Below are positions 9,189 through 32,220 of a DNA stretch of 39,028 bases, one piece after another. Position 1 is the first letter of the stretch. Every line of letters starts with the position of its first letter. This DNA is from a virus: the IMG/VR virus record IMGVR_UViG_3300048930_000172, positions 1 to 39,028 of that record; one strand, 5' to 3'. The notes beneath the pieces are model-generated. The model saw only the letters and a program-made list of their open reading frames with translations, was not told where the DNA came from and did no database searches. The translations under genes were made by a program, and so were the position numbers.

Positions 9189-9656
9189 TTATAGGTGCGC
9201 CCATAGTTTCTTTGTTTGGATGGCCGATACATGCTGCTGGCTGATTCCGAACCGCTTGGCCGTGATCCGCTGGGGTTCGGCTGACTGGCGAATGGCGAGC
9301 ACGTCATCCTTGGTGAGCTTGGCGAGCGGGTGCTTCTCGCCTCGGTTATCAGTTCCGTCTCGTCGGCGGTCCAACTGGTTCTCGCTCGGGCTCGCCCAGT
9401 AGAGGTGCCGGGCGTTCATGCAGAGCGTCTGCTTGCAGAGGTGCGCCGCTTCCTTGTCAGCGGGATCTTCGCCCGTCGCGAGCACCAGCGCGTGCCGGTG
9501 GGTGTACGTCAGCTCGCCGTCCAGCCGCACCTTGCCGTACTTCTTCTTGCCTCGGACGTTGATGTGGGCGTAGGGCCAGACGACGCACTCGTCCGTCTCG
9601 GTCGCTCGCAGCCGGTTGAACTCGCTGAGCGCTTGACCCCAAGGTAGTCTTGCCAT
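9189..9656 (-). CDS. HNH homing endonuclease 1
   Basis: The 155-residue free-standing endonuclease would cut unoccupied alleles to promote its own spread. It begins with a TDEC..WPYA motif (about 21-30) shared by all three HNH proteins here. The HNH core shows Asn81, His72 (AAHLCKQTLC) and His84 (NARHL), with Cys74 and Cys79 as possible zinc ligands. The C-terminal half (107-155) has AKLTKDDVLAIR followed by a helix-turn-helix (RITAKRFGISQQHVSAI) for DNA binding. It lies antisense between capsid and connector genes. Its ATG sits 2 nt from a hairpin whose loop holds the AGAGG ribosome site. It is clearly related to the proteins at 13179-13742 and 31771-32220. Confidence 0.92.
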   Translation of the reverse strand: MARLPWGQALSEFNRLRATETDECVVWPYAHINVRGKKKYGKVRLDGELTYTHRHALVLATGEDPADKEAAHLCKQTLCMNARHLYWASPSENQLDRRRDGTDNRGEKHPLAKLTKDDVLAIRQSAEPQRITAKRFGISQQHVSAIQTKKLWAHL

Positions 9657-9711
9657 ATCAGGAACCTCTGTTTCCTGGTCATGCCCCCGGCCGCTGACAC
9701 GGTGCGGGGGC
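9657..9711 (-). promoter_or_regulatory. Structured two-hairpin leader of HNH gene 1
   Basis: Reading towards the gene, an outer hairpin (GCCCCCG 9711-9705 with CGGGGGC 9689-9683, plus an inner CCG/CGG step) comes first. A 5-nt linker follows, then a second hairpin (CAGGAA 9677-9672 with TTCCTG 9664-9659). The loop of the second hairpin carries the ribosome site, 2 nt before the ATG-proximal end. The same arrangement with compensatory base changes precedes HNH gene 2 (13743-13796). It may control translation or be part of the mobile unit. Confidence 0.7.
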
Positions 9712-9740
9712 GTTCACTGTCTTGGGGGTCAGTGTAGTTC

Positions 9741-9746
9741 TATGCT
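9741..9746 (+). promoter_or_regulatory. -10 box, leaderless type
   Basis: TATGCT lies 6 nt before the ATG at 9753, just after the HNH leader and capsid terminator. A fresh promoter would be needed here to express the connector genes. No good -35 at 16-18 bp. Confidence 0.5.
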
Positions 9747-9752
9747 GTGGCA

Positions 9753-10175
9753 ATGACGATGATCGAGCACCCCGAGTGGGTCGAGGGTCGAAGGCTGTGG
9801 CTCGACCCGGCGATGCGTGTGGTCATCGACAAGCTGCACAACGGCGACGCCACGAAGGGTTGGGATGGCGACCCGCGGCTCGAGGTGTACTGCACCCCCA
9901 CCGCTGACGGTCCCGTATGGGAACTGTGGCGGTTGGAGGACGACAACGAGTACCGCATGACGTGTCGTTCGCAGCCTGGCGTCCCGTTCGATGAGCGTCT
10001 GATCGAACATCTCGTCGCCCACGACCGTCGCCGCTTCAAGACGTCGCTGCACGAGCAGATCAAGGCGAAGAACGATGCCGTCGACCGCGAGATCCGCCGC
10101 AAGAACGACGACTACATCCGCGAGGAAGTCAACCCGCGTCTCGACTGGGCCTTGAAGAAGGACGGACTCGCATGA
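9753..10175 (+). CDS. Hypothetical protein in the head-connector cluster
   Basis: The product is about 140 residues long, soluble and charged. It has a Trp-rich N-terminal half (HPEWVEGRRLWLDPAMR, VWELWRLEDD) and a helical, probably coiled C-terminal half rich in Lys, Arg and Asp (LHEQIKAKNDAVDREIRRKNDD). The ATG at 9753 is chosen because it lies 6 nt after the TATGCT box; GTG 9747 and ATG 9759 are alternatives. Its stop overlaps the next start (ATGA). Its place between capsid and adaptor suggests a virion or head-completion role, but no family is recognised. Confidence 0.7.
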   Translation: MTMIEHPEWVEGRRLWLDPAMRVVIDKLHNGDATKGWDGDPRLEVYCTPTADGPVWELWRLEDDNEYRMTCRSQPGVPFDERLIEHLVAHDRRRFKTSLHEQIKAKNDAVDREIRRKNDDYIREEVNPRLDWALKKDGLA

Positions 10176-10789
10176 GCCGCCTCGCACAGATCCGCCGCAC
10201 CGTGCGTTCACGTCTCGGCGTGCCGGTCACCGACCAGTTCCAAACCGACGACGTCATCGACGAACACATCAACATCGCCATCCAGACCATCGAACAAGAG
10301 AACCGCTGGCCGTGGCAGGAAGCGATCCAGGCCGTCACGATGGCCGACTCGTCCGGCGACTTCACCGTCCCGACCGACTGGCGGGCCACACGGGCGATCA
10401 TCGCCGACCGCTACGAAGTGAAGATCGTGTCGCCGATCGACGTGCTCATGTACCCGACGAACGCGTCCGGCCCCCCGCAGATCGCTGCGATCATCGACCG
10501 CACCGCCAAGCTGCGCCCCGTACCCGCAGCGGGGACCGTGCTGTCGCACATCTACTACCGTGCCCCGGTACTGCTCGTCGAGGACGACGACGAACCGCAG
10601 ATGCCGACCGAGTACACGCCGGCCATCGTCACGAAGGCCGCCGAACTGCTGTCGTTGCGCGAGGACGACCGTGCCGCTGCTGCTGCCCATCTCACCGAAT
10701 ACCAGCAGTGGCTACAGCGGATGAGGAAAGATACTCGTCGCACCACCGGCCCCATCACCCCCCGTATCCGTCCCGGTTCGTGGACGTAA
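10172..10789 (+). CDS. Head-to-tail adaptor protein
   Basis: The 205-residue product has the helical N-terminal pattern IRRTVRSRLGVP...FQTDDVIDEHINIAIQTIEQENRWPWQE (about residues 7-47). This resembles the adaptor proteins that bind under the portal in podoviruses such as SU10-type phages. A beta region with FTVPTDWRATRAII (about 62-75) follows, and then a C-terminal helical part (IVTKAAELLSLREDDRAAAAAHLTEY) that would extend along the portal. It overlaps the previous gene by four bases. Function inferred from pattern and synteny. Confidence 0.75.
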   Translation: MSRLAQIRRTVRSRLGVPVTDQFQTDDVIDEHINIAIQTIEQENRWPWQEAIQAVTMADSSGDFTVPTDWRATRAIIADRYEVKIVSPIDVLMYPTNASGPPQIAAIIDRTAKLRPVPAAGTVLSHIYYRAPVLLVEDDDEPQMPTEYTPAIVTKAAELLSLREDDRAAAAAHLTEYQQWLQRMRKDTRRTTGPITPRIRPGSWT

Positions 10790-10798
10790 GGAGACATC

Positions 10799-11095
10799 AT
10801 GATCCACGCCCTCGAAATCACCCTGTCGACCACCGCCCAGAAGATCGTCGACTGCACGAACGTCTCGGCCGTCGATCGTTGCCAGGTGCTCCTGCAAGCA
10901 GCGTCGGGTGCGATCCAGGTCGGCGGTCCCGACGTCTCCGTTGCCGGTGGCCTCACGATCGCGGCGACGACCGGGACTCTTGACATCTCGCTCGGCCCCG
11001 GCGACGATCTGTGGGCGGTTGCTGCTGGAACTGGAACCACAACGTCAACCGATCCATCACTGCCCCTGGTGGGCGTCGGTGGCGTCTGGTCCTGA
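10799..11095 (+). CDS. Small structural (decoration-like) protein
   Basis: The 98-residue product is Gly/Thr/Ala-rich and predicted all-beta, with VGGPDVSVAGGLTIAATTGTLDI and a closing LWAVAAGTGTTT. This resembles small head- or tail-decorating beta proteins found near connector genes. AAGGAG sits 8 nt before the ATG. It lies between adaptor and tail hub genes. The exact role is not deducible. Confidence 0.6.
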   Translation: MIHALEITLSTTAQKIVDCTNVSAVDRCQVLLQAASGAIQVGGPDVSVAGGLTIAATTGTLDISLGPGDDLWAVAAGTGTTTSTDPSLPLVGVGGVWS

Positions 11096-11115
11096 CCCGG
11101 CCGTTACTTCCAAGT

Positions 11116-11158
11116 TGGTTCGCCCGTCAACCACCCACCGAACCACGCGGAGTAACCT
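11116..11158 (+). promoter_or_regulatory. Inverted repeat and -10 box before the tail hub gene
   Basis: TGGTTCG (11116-11122) and CGAACCA (11139-11145) form a perfect 7-bp inverted repeat just upstream of TAACCT (11153-11158). That box is 6 nt before the ATG at 11165. The repeat covers the position where a -35 would lie, so it could be an operator or simply a hairpin. Confidence 0.4.
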
Positions 11159-11164
11159 GCCGAC

Positions 11165-12679
11165 ATGCCGGATTTTCCCGTTCGTTGGAGTGATTGGTCC
11201 GGTGGTGACTACGGCGACCTCGACTCCGCGAAGGCCGAGTCGAACCAGTACCACGGCAACAACGTCACCGTCTACAACTCGGGGCTGATCGGACCTCGCG
11301 CCGGCCTCAAGCCGTTCACGACGAGTGGACTGCCTACACACACGCACGCCCCCGGTCCAATGGGGTTCAGTGTGTTCAACTCGAACCTGCTGATCGTGCT
11401 GAACCGGATCTACCAGATCCCGCTCTCCACGGGCGTCGCTGCCGCCCAGGACGTGTACCCGACGTCGGCTGCCAACCCGGTCGGCTTCGCCGTCGCCAAC
11501 AGCGTGCTGTACTCACTCAAGGACGGCATCGTCTACAAGCACTCAGGCACCGCGACCGTCGCCGCAACCATGCCGGTTGGCATCACGTTCTCCCGGCTCG
11601 TGCAATGGGAACAGTGGCTCATCGGCGTCGACGCCACCGTCCCGTACCGGATCTGGTTCACCGAACTCACCTCGGCCGGACCCAACTTCGACGTGTGGCC
11701 CGCCAACAACTTCTTGTACGTCGGCGGCAACCAGGCCATCGAAGCGCTCCTTCCGATCTACAACACGCTGTACGCAGGCAAGGCGTCGGGCTGGTGGGCA
11801 GTGTCCGGCGTGCTCGGCATCCAAGCCTCGGTGCGTGCCCTCACGATCGGCAACGGCCCGAAGGACGGACGCCTCGCCGCCGCGACGACCGACAACCGGA
11901 TCGTGTACTGGCCGAACCAGGACTCGCCCGCCATGTTCAACGGCGAATCGACCCGCGTCCTCGACCGTCAAGTGCTCAGACAGGCTCAGACCGAGTTCCC
12001 GTCCGACGGCATAGCAGTCACCCCCACACACCAGAAGGTGTACATGGCGGGCGACGCTGACGCCAACAACGACGCCACCGACCTGTACGAATACCACCAG
12101 GGCCGATGGTCCTATCTTTCGCTCAACACTGCGATCGGTGGCATCCTGCCCCTCGACGTCAAGGCCGGCGACCAGCTCCCGTCCGGTGTGATCTTCGTCG
12201 TCAACAGTCCAACGACCGTCGGTGATGCCGTCGTCATCTCGTCGTTCGATCACGGTCTGGATCGACCGGCGCACGCCTCCGACACCTGGGCGTCACCGAC
12301 CGATCCCGGTGAGACGGAACTCGTGGCGGGAGAACTCGAGCTGCGGTCGTGGTACGACGGCCAAGGCAGGCAGGTGCGGGTGCGTTCCGTCATCGTGCAG
12401 TTCCGCAAGTGGACGTCGGGTGTCGCTGACACGTTGAACCGGATCACGATGAACGTCACGGTCAACGGCCAGTACGAGGCCGGTTCGGCGACGGGCGACA
12501 CTGTCGAATGGTACGAGCCGTCCGAGCGGGCGACCGATGACGGCACGAACGATTCGTGGCGGGTGAATATCGGCGAGCAGGGCTGGGGCAACGGGCTGAC
12601 GATCACGTTCCCGAAATTGCAGGGTGTCGCGATCCGCGAGGTGATCGCACTGTGTGACGTGAGGAACACGAAGACGTGA
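11165..12679 (+). CDS. Putative tail hub / nozzle protein
   Basis: The 504-residue product begins with the pattern SKAESNQYHGNNVTVYNSGLIGPRAG-like (about residues 22-47), followed by many short beta blades (for example FSVFNSNLLIVLNRIYQIP, FAVANSVLYSLKDGIVYKH, RIVYWPNQDSPAMF). This repeated-blade composition resembles the beta-propeller nozzle or 'stabilisation' proteins of podoviral tails (P22 gp10 type). The C-terminal region has a separate beta domain (about 390-500). It follows a leaderless-type -10 box and overlaps the next gene (GTGA). The assignment is by composition, size and position, so tail tube or fibre attachment remains possible. Confidence 0.65.
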   Translation: MPDFPVRWSDWSGGDYGDLDSAKAESNQYHGNNVTVYNSGLIGPRAGLKPFTTSGLPTHTHAPGPMGFSVFNSNLLIVLNRIYQIPLSTGVAAAQDVYPTSAANPVGFAVANSVLYSLKDGIVYKHSGTATVAATMPVGITFSRLVQWEQWLIGVDATVPYRIWFTELTSAGPNFDVWPANNFLYVGGNQAIEALLPIYNTLYAGKASGWWAVSGVLGIQASVRALTIGNGPKDGRLAAATTDNRIVYWPNQDSPAMFNGESTRVLDRQVLRQAQTEFPSDGIAVTPTHQKVYMAGDADANNDATDLYEYHQGRWSYLSLNTAIGGILPLDVKAGDQLPSGVIFVVNSPTTVGDAVVISSFDHGLDRPAHASDTWASPTDPGETELVAGELELRSWYDGQGRQVRVRSVIVQFRKWTSGVADTLNRITMNVTVNGQYEAGSATGDTVEWYEPSERATDDGTNDSWRVNIGEQGWGNGLTITFPKLQGVAIREVIALCDVRNTKT

Positions 12680-13068
12680 GCAACGGTCCCGGTTTCCAGT
12701 ACGCGCTGCGCGCCGAGCAGTTGGCGTTCGCCCCGTCGGATCAGTACCGCGCCGTGTTGCAGGAACAGCGCGACCGCGAGCTGGAAGACCATTTGGCCGC
12801 GACGGCGACCAAGCTCAACGGCATCCAATACGACCGAACTGCTGTTACAACAGACGGTTCAGGGCAAGCGACGATCAACTTTCCTTCGGCGTTCACTGCG
12901 TTGCCGTCAATGTCGCAGCCCGCTGTGGCTGGTACGTCCGTGTATGTCGCCACGATCACCTCCCTGTCAAAAACCAGCTTCACGGTGTCGGTTCGCAGCA
13001 TCACTACGGGCACTTTGTTCGTCGGCAGTATCACGATCATGTGGCAGGCGTTCGGGGAGCTGGCGTGA
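12676..13068 (+). CDS. Minor tail protein with C-terminal beta domain
   Basis: The 130-residue product has a helical N-terminus (LRAEQLAFAPSDQYRAVLQEQRDREL, about 12-37) that could anchor it to the tail. The C-terminal domain (about 55-128) contains TTDGSGQATINFPSAF and ends in GSITIMWQAFGE, similar to the short beta domains that cap phage tail fibres (gp53/H-type lectin-like). The GTG start overlaps the previous stop. Receptor or structural role is inferred. Confidence 0.6.
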   Translation: MSNGPGFQYALRAEQLAFAPSDQYRAVLQEQRDRELEDHLAATATKLNGIQYDRTAVTTDGSGQATINFPSAFTALPSMSQPAVAGTSVYVATITSLSKTSFTVSVRSITTGTLFVGSITIMWQAFGELA

Positions 13069-13096
13069 GTCCAATCCGCAGCGGTGGTGCTGTGAC

Positions 13097-13102
13097 TACG
13101 AT
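13097..13102 (+). promoter_or_regulatory. Possible -10 box before the truncated gene start
   Basis: TACGAT is followed by a short leader containing AAGGAG and the ATG at 13122. It would transcribe the truncated gene copy and run antisense into the HNH gene. Confidence 0.3.
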
Positions 13103-13121
13103 GGCACGCAAGGAGTGACGA

Positions 13122-13184
13122 ATGGCAGCCAAGACTGACAACTCAATGACGAGCCTGCTGTCACGCTTCGGCGTGGGACTAGAT
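13122..13184 (+). pseudogene. Truncated 5' end of an internal virion protein gene
   Basis: The first ~20 codons (MAAKTDNSMTSLLSRFGV) match the start of the intact downstream gene at 13825 (MAENTNGMTSLLSRLGV). The homology stops where the antisense HNH gene begins. The frame stays open through the HNH gene to 13832, but that part is only HNH antisense. A good ribosome site (AAGGAG) is retained. This looks like the left remnant of a gene interrupted at its 5' end by the HNH unit. Confidence 0.75.
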
Positions 13185-13742
13185 GTGCTTCCACGTGCGT
13201 CGGTTTCGAGCTTGACTGATCGTTGCCTCGCCAACCCCGTACTTCTCCGCCAGGACCTTCCCTTGCTCACCAGACGCACGGATGACACGAACGTCACGCT
13301 CCGTCAGCCTGTGCGCCGGGCACTGCTCTCCCCAGTTCATCGTGCCGTCGCGCTTCTTGTCGGCGCAGTTCTCTGCTCTCGTAGCCCATCGCAGGTGACG
13401 AGGGTTCATGCACGACGGGTTGTGGCACGGCCCGTGTGCGGCCTCAAGGCCATCGCCGTCAATTCCGGTCGCACGTTGCAGCGCGAGGCGGTGCGTGTAG
13501 TGCTTGGTGCCTTCGTAGACCAGCGTGCCGTATCCCGCAGAAGTTCGGGCGTGCGGCCACTCAATGCACTCGTCGGTCTGAATCGCGAGCAGGCGATCGA
13601 AGTCGCCCGACCGCTGCCGACTCGGCGCGATCGGAGTGTCCAGTTCCCCTCGATACCTGCGCCTACGGTGCGAGCAGCACATCGACCGTCCTTGTGTCGG
13701 TCGACCGCAACCGTCGACGGGGCAGTGGCTAGGGTGGGTCAT
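13179..13742 (-). CDS. HNH homing endonuclease 2 with N-terminal zinc finger
   Basis: The 187-residue product has an extra N-terminal Cys/His cluster (Cys7, Cys12, Cys22, Cys23, His25) absent from the other two copies. It then shows the shared QTDEC..WPHA motif (56-65) and THRLALQRATG. The HNH core is AAH103 with Cys106 and Cys111, Asn113 and His116. The C-terminal part has HRLTERDVRVIRAS and a helix-turn-helix (GKVLAEKYGVGEATISQA). An AAGGAGG ribosome site lies in the loop of the conserved hairpin 2 nt before the ATG. It sits antisense exactly between a truncated and an intact copy of the same gene start. Confidence 0.92.
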   Translation of the reverse strand: MTHPSHCPVDGCGRPTQGRSMCCSHRRRRYRGELDTPIAPSRQRSGDFDRLLAIQTDECIEWPHARTSAGYGTLVYEGTKHYTHRLALQRATGIDGDGLEAAHGPCHNPSCMNPRHLRWATRAENCADKKRDGTMNWGEQCPAHRLTERDVRVIRASGEQGKVLAEKYGVGEATISQARNRRTWKHI

Positions 13743-13796
13743 ATCAGCCTCCTTGGTGGCTGGTCGTGCCCCCGGCTGTTTGCGCAGTGCGGGGGC
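13743..13796 (-). promoter_or_regulatory. Structured two-hairpin leader of HNH gene 2
   Basis: It has the same layout as 9657-9711. The outer hairpin is GCCCCCG (13796-13790) with CGGGGGC (13774-13768) and an inner CTG/CAG step. A 5-nt linker follows, then the inner hairpin CAGCC (13762-13758) with GGCTG (13749-13745), whose loop holds AAGGAGG. Compared with leader 1, both the inner step and the ribosome-site hairpin differ in sequence while keeping pairing. Confidence 0.7.
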
Positions 13797-13824
13797 GTTT
13801 CTTCAACCTTAGTGGGTGGATGTC

Positions 13825-14412
13825 ATGGCTGAGAACACCAACGGGATGACCTCGCTCCTGAGTCGGCTGGGCGTGGACTACCAGAACGCTCCCGCGCCCA
13901 CGCCGGCCACCCTCGCGTTCATGCGTGGGCTCGGGCTGTCGTTGGACACGATGGCTGCTGCGAAGGACAAGCAGGTCGGCCGCATCAAGGACCGCACCAC
14001 CTCGACGCTCGGGGACATCGACGTCGCCAACGAGCGCACGAAGACGAACATGCTCGGCGATCTCGTCCGGCGCGGCGTGCTGCGCTCCGGTGAAGCGAAC
14101 ACCCGGTACGGTCAGCAGGCTGAGAACGTCGCCCGTCGGAAGTCGGACGCTCTGCGTGCCCAGGCCGAAGGGATCGACCAGGCCGAGTTCGGGTTCAACA
14201 CGGGCGCTGACTCGCTGCGGACGCGGGCACTCGAAACGGTGCTCGGTGCCGAGACATCGCAGGCGCAAGAGAAGGCGGCACTCAAGGCGCAGGAGGAATC
14301 GTACAAGCGCCAGGATGCAGCCGCCGAACTCGCCTACACCCGCTCGAAGGAAGCCGAGGAACGGGCACTCAAGGCGCAAGAGGACTTTCTCAAGAGGGGG
14401 CTCGGGATATGA
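13825..14412 (+). CDS. Internal virion / ejection-type protein
   Basis: The 195-residue product is Ala-, Glu- and Arg-rich and almost entirely helical. Long coiled-coil stretches (about 50-95 and 130-190) and repeated AQEKAALKAQEES / ERALKAQEDF units are visible. Its place before the two largest virion genes matches the small internal core proteins that podoviruses eject with DNA. ATG 13825 is chosen by alignment with the truncated copy at 13122; an in-frame GTG lies at 13816. Its stop overlaps the next ATG (ATGA). Function inferred. Confidence 0.65.
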   Translation: MAENTNGMTSLLSRLGVDYQNAPAPTPATLAFMRGLGLSLDTMAAAKDKQVGRIKDRTTSTLGDIDVANERTKTNMLGDLVRRGVLRSGEANTRYGQQAENVARRKSDALRAQAEGIDQAEFGFNTGADSLRTRALETVLGAETSQAQEKAALKAQEESYKRQDAAAELAYTRSKEAEERALKAQEDFLKRGLGI

Positions 14413-31770: not shown

Positions 31771-32220
31771 TCAGGTGTCCTTCTGTTGGATGTGCTTCCA
31801 CGATTTGTGGGTGCGAATCGAGTGGATCGTGTTGCGGGCGACGCCGTAGTGCTGGGCGAGGGTTGCGGCTGATTGGGTGGATGCTCGGATGTCGAGGACG
31901 TCCGCTGGTGTGAGTTTGGCTCTCATGGTGTGATCTGCGATCATGTCGGCGCTGTTCTCGGCTGGTGTGGCCCAGCGAAGGTGACGCAGGTTGATGCATG
32001 AACGATTGCGGCACGAGTGCGCAGCGACCAGCCCGGCCGGGTTGGTTCCGGTTGCTTGCGTCAAGACGTAGCGGTGGACTGTGATTGTTGAGTCGCGCAG
32101 TGATATTTGGGCGTACCCATCGCTGCGGGTGAAGTGCGGCCATGGTGTGCAGTCATCGGTTTCGATGGCGGAGAGGGTGACCGCCTCCTCTGCTCGTGTT
32201 GGTGTCCTGTTGCTGCTCAT
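31771..32220 (-). CDS. HNH homing endonuclease 3
   Basis: The 149-residue product has the shared TDDC..WPHF motif (21-30). The core is AAH68 with Cys70 and Cys75, Asn77 (CINLRHLRW) and His80. AKLTPADVLDIRAS and a helix-turn-helix (AATLAQHYGVARNTIHSI) follow. Unlike copies 1 and 2 it has no structured leader. Its ATG is 6 nt from a CATACT box, itself 17 bp from TTGACG, so it opens a leftward transcription unit. The C-terminal WKHI is shared with HNH protein 2. Confidence 0.92.
   Translation of the reverse strand: MSSNRTPTRAEEAVTLSAIETDDCTPWPHFTRSDGYAQISLRDSTITVHRYVLTQATGTNPAGLVAAHSCRNRSCINLRHLRWATPAENSADMIADHTMRAKLTPADVLDIRASTQSAATLAQHYGVARNTIHSIRTHKSWKHIQQKDT

Follow-up and report, generated by a model that had tools for sequence, protein, structure and literature searches.

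In a 39,028-nucleotide (nt) stretch of virus DNA (IMG/VR virus record IMGVR_UViG_3300048930_000172, positions 1 to 39,028; hereafter the window), two minus-strand genes for HNH_3 endonucleases, here called HNH A and HNH B, each adjoin a two-hairpin element. The original prediction took these elements for structured leaders of the HNH mRNAs. Our analysis indicates that each element is probably the gene of a cis-antisense RNA of ~65 nt, which lies opposite the HNH gene, resembles RNA-OUT of IS10 in design and represses the endonuclease by covering its Shine-Dalgarno (SD) region.

The elements were found exactly where they had been placed, at 9657-9711 and 13743-13796, next to the ATGs at 9656 and 13742. 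As described, both contain a GCCCCCG/CGGGGGC stem (hairpin 1), whose inner step is CCG/CGG in one element and CTG/CAG in the other, and a hairpin on the side of the ribosome-binding site (RBS; hairpin 2), with CAGGAA/TTCCTG in one and CAGCC/GGCTG in the other. The hairpin-1 pattern occurred twice in the window and not once in 100 shuffles; the elements are genuine and far exceed what chance would give. On the plus strand, the linker between the hairpins is 3 nt rather than the 5 nt claimed and hairpin 2 has 7-8 bp including a G-U pair. The loop of hairpin 2 holds the RBS in the gene sense, as predicted, whereas on the plus strand it carries the complement: CCTCTGT (9665-9671) opposite the SD region of HNH A, and the anti-SD sequence TCCTTGGT (13750-13757) in the second element. 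The predicted RNAs A and B start one base from the HNH start codons, and their folds were calculated at -31 kcal/mol (z -3.2) and -31.9 kcal/mol (z -3.1), respectively. The third HNH gene (31771-32220) was said to be free of the element, and no covariance-model copy was detected there. The predicted features are listed below.

9645..9650, plus strand: -10 box of antisense RNA A, TAGTCT (TANNNT), within the first HNH A codons, assigned from the conserved RANNNTAY and the window sequence
9657..9722, plus strand: predicted antisense RNA A, ~66 nt (R2 model match 9644-9720, plus strand, E 2e-17)
9657..9679, plus strand: 5' hairpin of RNA A (hairpin 2), arms 9657-9664 and 9672-9679
9683..9711, plus strand: terminator-like 3' hairpin of RNA A (hairpin 1), core CCGGCCG...CGGTGCGG
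9712..9722, plus strand: tail of RNA A past the terminator stem, T-run weak in this copy (sequence; family tail statistics)
9731..9736, minus strand: candidate -10 box of the sense promoter of HNH A, TACACT, lying 25 nt upstream of hairpin 1
9189..9656, minus strand: HNH_3 endonuclease gene A, the putative target (Pfam HNH_3, 26.1 bits)
13730..13735, plus strand: -10 box of antisense RNA B, TAGGGT, assigned as for RNA A
13743..13807, plus strand: predicted antisense RNA B, ~65 nt (R2 model match 13729-13805, plus strand, E 6e-17)
13743..13764, plus strand: 5' hairpin of RNA B, arms 13743-13749 and 13758-13764
13768..13796, plus strand: terminator-like 3' hairpin of RNA B
13797..13807, plus strand: T-rich tail of RNA B, GTTTCTTCAAC (sequence)
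13806..13811, minus strand: weak candidate -10 box of the sense promoter of HNH B, TAAGGT, lying 15 nt upstream of hairpin 1
13179..13742, minus strand: HNH_3 endonuclease gene B, the putative target (Pfam HNH_3, 29.7 bits)

Non-canonical pairs reveal the strand on which a structure is selected, because an A-C pair on one strand is a G-U pair on the opposite one. When 170 non-redundant elements of the family were read in the gene sense, hairpin 1 contained 1669 Watson-Crick, 30 A-C and 0 G-U pairs, and hairpin 2, which was located by a score symmetric for G-U and A-C, contained 1115, 227 and 8, giving 257 A-C against only 8 G-U for both stems (~30:1). Hairpin 2 was more stable on the antisense strand in 153 of the 170 elements (mean energy -11.3 kcal/mol, against -7.4 kcal/mol in the sense strand), whereas the strands of shuffled sequences were equal. 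In a fixed register, at least seven of the eight outer pairs formed in 77% of the antisense, 12.5% of the sense and 1.7% of the shuffled sequences. On the antisense strand, the internal loop of the gene sense (C[AG]/C) mostly turns into a G-C or G-U pair with a single bulged G. An antisense-oriented alignment of 102 members contained 1739 Watson-Crick, 188 G-U, 4 A-C and 22 other cells, and nearly each pair of the RBS-side hairpin showed at least three pair types; the pairing percentages of this alignment are inflated because the RBS-side stem was chosen for pairing, whereas the G-U/A-C ratio of the 170 elements is unaffected. The covariance model R2, built on the family with both window copies in the training set, matched these copies on the plus strand (E 2e-17 and 6e-17), while on the minus strand hairpin 1 alone matched (E 0.018 and 0.4); these E-values are rough.

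The proposed ends of the RNA point to the same strand. The first codons of the target genes contain the motif RANNNTAY, with its TA mostly 34-41 nt past hairpin 1; on the antisense strand this motif reads TANNNT, that is, a -10 box. ANNNTA/TANNNT was located 11-12 nt from hairpin 2 (counted to TA) in 121 of ~165 elements. A scan of IMG/VR with the apical terminator core alone, CCGGCNGTTNNCGCNGCGCGG, intended to avoid the bias of the first patterns, gave 79 matches, 52 of which had a second hairpin flush with a 3-nt linker and TANNNT. The box was 6-7 nt before hairpin 2 in 49 of these 52 independent members, so that an RNA would start at the first base of that hairpin, and the outer stem, left free in the pattern, covaried (CG, GC, TA, AT, UG, GU). 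After hairpin 1, the 12 nt in the antisense direction contained 4.9 T on average, against 2.4 in the background and 1.2 in the sense direction; as a family statistic, a G+C-rich hairpin is thus followed by a T-rich tail in the antisense direction only. In Virus Rctr16k the predicted RNA ends GCUUUUUU. On the sense strand, 107 of 196 elements, as compared with 28 in shuffles, had a TANNNT at 18-34 nt upstream of hairpin 1, with a peak at 20; the mRNA of the gene would therefore start close to the distal end of the antisense RNA. The candidate of HNH A fits the family peak (18-27 nt upstream) and that of HNH B falls outside it. Two other interpretations of the conserved motifs were discarded. 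RANNNTAY is not an in-frame protein or translation signal, since it is also present in elements without a start codon and is explained as the antisense -10 box; its phase bias can follow from codon freedom. An upstream open reading frame (ORF) from the linker RTG was rejected because RTG and the conserved TA do not share a single reading frame.

Taken together, the excess of A-C over G-U in the gene sense, the spacing of the -10 box, the tail of the terminator and the scores of the model argue that the selected functional RNA lies opposite the target gene, on the plus strand of the window. They speak against the predicted minus-strand leader, and it is unlikely that the HNH mRNA by itself limits translation, forming two hairpins of which the second holds or hides the RBS, with no antisense RNA involved. 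The sense strand can form both hairpins too, and the linker CA pairs with the UG of the start codon in many members. RBS-sequestering hairpins are known in phage homing endonuclease genes, namely T4 I-TevI, segB and Aeh1 mobE, together with an upstream hairpin of seg43(25) (PMC2988022). The family elements resemble these in having RNA structure at the RBS of such genes, but the hairpins of T4 and Aeh1 act in the sense mRNA, whereas pairing selected in the mRNA strand was not found among the family elements. A sense leader would have to tolerate A-C over G-U at ~30:1 and a weaker hairpin 2 in 153 of 170 elements, and it gives no role to the -10 spacing and the T-tail. The weaker sense hairpin fits a translatable mRNA under the control of a well-folded antisense RNA.

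The claim of a conserved structured RNA held when extended to the family. Pairing-preserving changes amounted to 109 double-change cells against 41.8 in shuffled alignments, and the covariation score of a MAFFT alignment (A3) was 0.469, compared with 0.161 for shuffled and at most 0.150 for slid alignments; 0 of 500 shuffles reached it. In the family alignment, the bases just before and just after hairpin 1 covary as U-G and C-A, which are isosteric wobbles, and the loop-closing pair does likewise.

From the computed properties of the module, namely its structure, strand, -10 spacing, tail, position over the RBS and, for HNH A, joint insertion with the gene, we infer transcription, pairing, repression and purpose as follows. 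The -10 box in the first HNH codons would start an RNA around the base next to the start codon. In this RNA, a 5' hairpin with an anti-SD loop would be joined by a 3-nt linker to a terminator hairpin that is rich in G+C and has a conserved apical core. The antisense RNA would pair with the HNH mRNA at its 5' end, cover the RBS and so keep the endonuclease low; the promoter of this mRNA appears to face the antisense gene from just upstream. Expression would be low in the cell that carries the element and possible upon entry into a naive cell. The suggestion that the element restricts endonuclease expression is thus probably right, by antisense action and not as a sense leader.

Several observations weigh against this antisense repressor. 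The antisense strand is the strand of the late structural genes, and read-through could give the same complementarity without a dedicated promoter. The -10 box is conserved and tightly spaced, yet no conserved -35 box was found among the family elements, and a consensus scan detected no sigma-70-type promoter. The tails of the window copies are weaker than those of the family, with a weak T-run in copy A, and the consensus terminator scan called neither copy. Some elements stand upstream of integrases without an internal start codon, so coverage of the RBS is not universal. Finally, Asr9 of ISPpu9, an antisense RNA of the same position class, activates rather than represses (PMC8450116).

Asr9 also provides the precedent for an activating antisense RNA, which would open the weak sense hairpin and aid translation, or shield the mRNA from decay. 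Like the RNA proposed here, it is antisense to the 5' region of a transposase mRNA with a structured RBS, but it is ~180 nt long and directed to a long 5' untranslated region (PMC8450116). Although the sense hairpins do fold around the RBS, they are the weaker ones, and the antisense RNA covers the SD region itself, where a full duplex would block ribosomes. Activation is accordingly improbable in our estimation. We regard it as very unlikely that the plus-strand promoter, leader and terminator form an attenuator of the next plus-strand gene (9747, 13822). In the window such a gene begins within ~40 nt past each terminator, but among 156 loci an ORF start within 80 nt past the terminator was near random (0.65 vs 0.59), as it was for ORFs of at least 120 amino acids (0.39 vs 0.33), and no clear excess of ORFs past the terminator was found on the antisense strand. 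A DNA-level element such as a recombination end or a protein-binding palindrome, which would suit targets that are mobile-element genes and the joint insertion of HNH A with its element, can hardly be the explanation, because selection on DNA should not distinguish G-T from A-C and the TANNNT spacing and one-sided T-tail point to a transcript.

The repressing antisense RNA agrees with the position of the family elements relative to their targets. An ORF of at least 60 amino acids started at 161 of 194 elements, compared with 139 of 582 random positions; the elements overlap the RBS and/or start codon of the target, and a 4-5 nt anti-SD sequence (CTCC/CCTC/TCCT/CCTCC) was present in 139 of 170. 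Among 149 downstream proteins, whose family assignments overlap, there were 42 HNH_3, 11 HNH, 9 HNH_5 and 8 tyrosine integrases, as well as two Cas1 proteins with a weak C-terminal helix-turn-helix match, an IS1595 transposase, a XisF-like recombinase, KilAC antirepressors, DnaN and many proteins of no known family. The predicted link to HNH genes therefore holds in that elements sit at their translation starts, but an association with HNH genes only was rejected in view of this mixture. The module was absent from eight isolate-phage HNH relatives inspected closely (L050-L057) so that the HNH_3 family does not carry it as a fixed component; searching with peptide patterns of the HNH proteins returned few relatives. 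The module with the Cas1 genes, which are casposase-like, stands at their starts in metagenome-assembled genomes of Acidimicrobiales (L144 1683-3452, L146 6365-7999). L103, L143, L087, L106 and L229 contain the two hairpins and the -10 box yet lack an internal start codon, and in L103 an integrase-like ORF starts ~100 nt downstream of the module. In L277 (~460-520) the terminator hairpin comes immediately after the 3' portion of a tRNA-like sequence, which may be an attachment site.

The module occurs in phages and bacteria. Scanning IMG/VR with an exact pattern yielded 36 contigs, ~27 of which have the same layout of a G+C-rich hairpin, a short linker, an SD-bearing second hairpin and a start codon. 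Broader patterns found 98 stretches among GTDB genomes and at least 119 in IMG/VR, most of them confirmed by a first covariance model (hairpin 1, gene sense); these counts are lower bounds biased by the patterns used. Matches L004, L007, L008, L010, L011, L026, L030, L036 and L039 of the first pattern were discarded as coding or chance, and those in Acetobacter phiAP1 and Amohnition because they have only a terminator-like hairpin in common with the module, lacking both hairpin 2 and the -10 box. Carriers include Virus Rctr16k, Propionibacterium phage Anatole (also B3 and E1, by BLAST), Pseudanabaena phage Pan2, Arthrobacter phage Persistence (upstream of an HNH gene) and the cluster P Mycobacterium phages Phayonce and ThulaThula, with Fishburne matching weakly. 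There are 1-3 copies per phage and up to 11 in some bacterial genomes, although the bacterial spread is sporadic (13 of 61 genomes sampled from the class to which L103 belongs). In a draw of 80 Pseudomonadota genomes only the seed genome itself matched, which doubles as a false-positive control. In cluster P the module faces a conserved phrog_658 gene of unknown function (L325 983-1495, L327, L329), which is a few genes from an antirepressor gene in Phayonce and Fishburne and near an excise gene in ThulaThula. In Anatole (L040 505) and Pan2 (L041 3055), the open frame of the HNH gene begins at the antisense module, and the annotated starts, at 772 and 3580, appear to lie far downstream.

In the FinP/traJ system of F-like plasmids, the RNA consists of two stem-loops, the 5' one opposite the RBS of the target and the 3' one a terminator. 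The module has the same two-stem-loop design but differs in sequence and target, and has no Rfam match. RNA-OUT of IS10 is 69 nt long and complementary to the transposase translation initiation region, which is covered by its first 35 nt (PMC5006887). Both are short opposite-strand RNAs against the translation initiation region of a mobile-element gene; the module differs in its two hairpins, conserved terminator core, unrelated target genes and occurrence in many phyla, and its repression is proposed here from sequence. The window elements did not match the Rfam RNA-OUT model, or any other Rfam 15 model, at the gathering score, and a permissive search with both elements gave only chance matches to other families. 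According to a review, CfrI of cyanophage S-PM2 is likewise a phage antisense RNA beside a homing endonuclease gene, but it is tied to psbA and F-CphI, and the review describes no small two-hairpin RNA over the endonuclease RBS (PMC12197685, citing Millard 2010). The start-associated sequence (SAS) and extended SAS (ESAS) of cluster K mycobacteriophages also combine a start-codon-linked sequence with an upstream inverted repeat at unrelated genes; unlike the module, the SAS has many copies per genome, about half of them with an ESAS, and its authors found little support for mRNA hairpins, whereas the module pairs strongly (PMC3203893). The SAS, GGGATAGGAGCCC, is absent at both HNH starts. No description of the RNA was found in the open-access literature, and the module is best read as an RNA of known, RNA-OUT-like design without an Rfam match.

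More speculatively, the module might be a portable antisense switch, in which the terminator scaffold is conserved and the anti-RBS hairpin is specific to each gene. Unrelated mobile-DNA enzymes of phages and bacteria (HNH homing endonucleases, tyrosine and serine recombinases, IS1595 transposase, Cas1 with helix-turn-helix) would have taken up this switch, which would keep them silent where the element is resident and permit them upon entry into a naive cell; its conserved core may bind a host or phage factor. How free-standing homing endonucleases, which are common in phages, are held down outside T4-like phages is largely unknown; if true, a single antisense module acting on homing endonucleases as well as on integrases and other recombinases would answer this question in general terms, and phages that can be cultured would allow the idea to be tested. 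Rfam would gain a structured RNA family that it lacks, and the module would help to correct gene starts, as in Anatole and Pan2. The terminator core (CCGGCTGTT..CGCAGCGCGG) also occurs solitarily, as an apparently bidirectional terminator (AAACCCCCGGCTG...GCGGGGGTTT) without an anti-RBS hairpin, in L350, L376, L382, L389 and L043 (1501-1527). In view of this use without a second hairpin, the core may be simply a good terminator or may bind a factor.

The element had also been suggested to be part of a mobile unit, and this is borne out for HNH A. L425 has a head protein with 85% identity, and in it ~65 nt separate the head gene from the gene that follows, with neither an HNH gene nor a module between them; the model matched in none of 16 relatives. 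This empty site is most simply explained if HNH A and the module arrived as one insertion. For HNH B, the flanks in L425 are too different for such a comparison. HNH B is flanked by two copies of the start of the plus-strand gene at 13822 (13822-13885 and 13122-13181), one copy being complete and the other diverged and truncated (MAAKTDNSMTSLLSRFGVG against MAENTNGMTSLLSRLGVDY). Both copies share GGACTA at the break, which contains the HNH stop codon, and the duplication looks like a homing or recombination scar.

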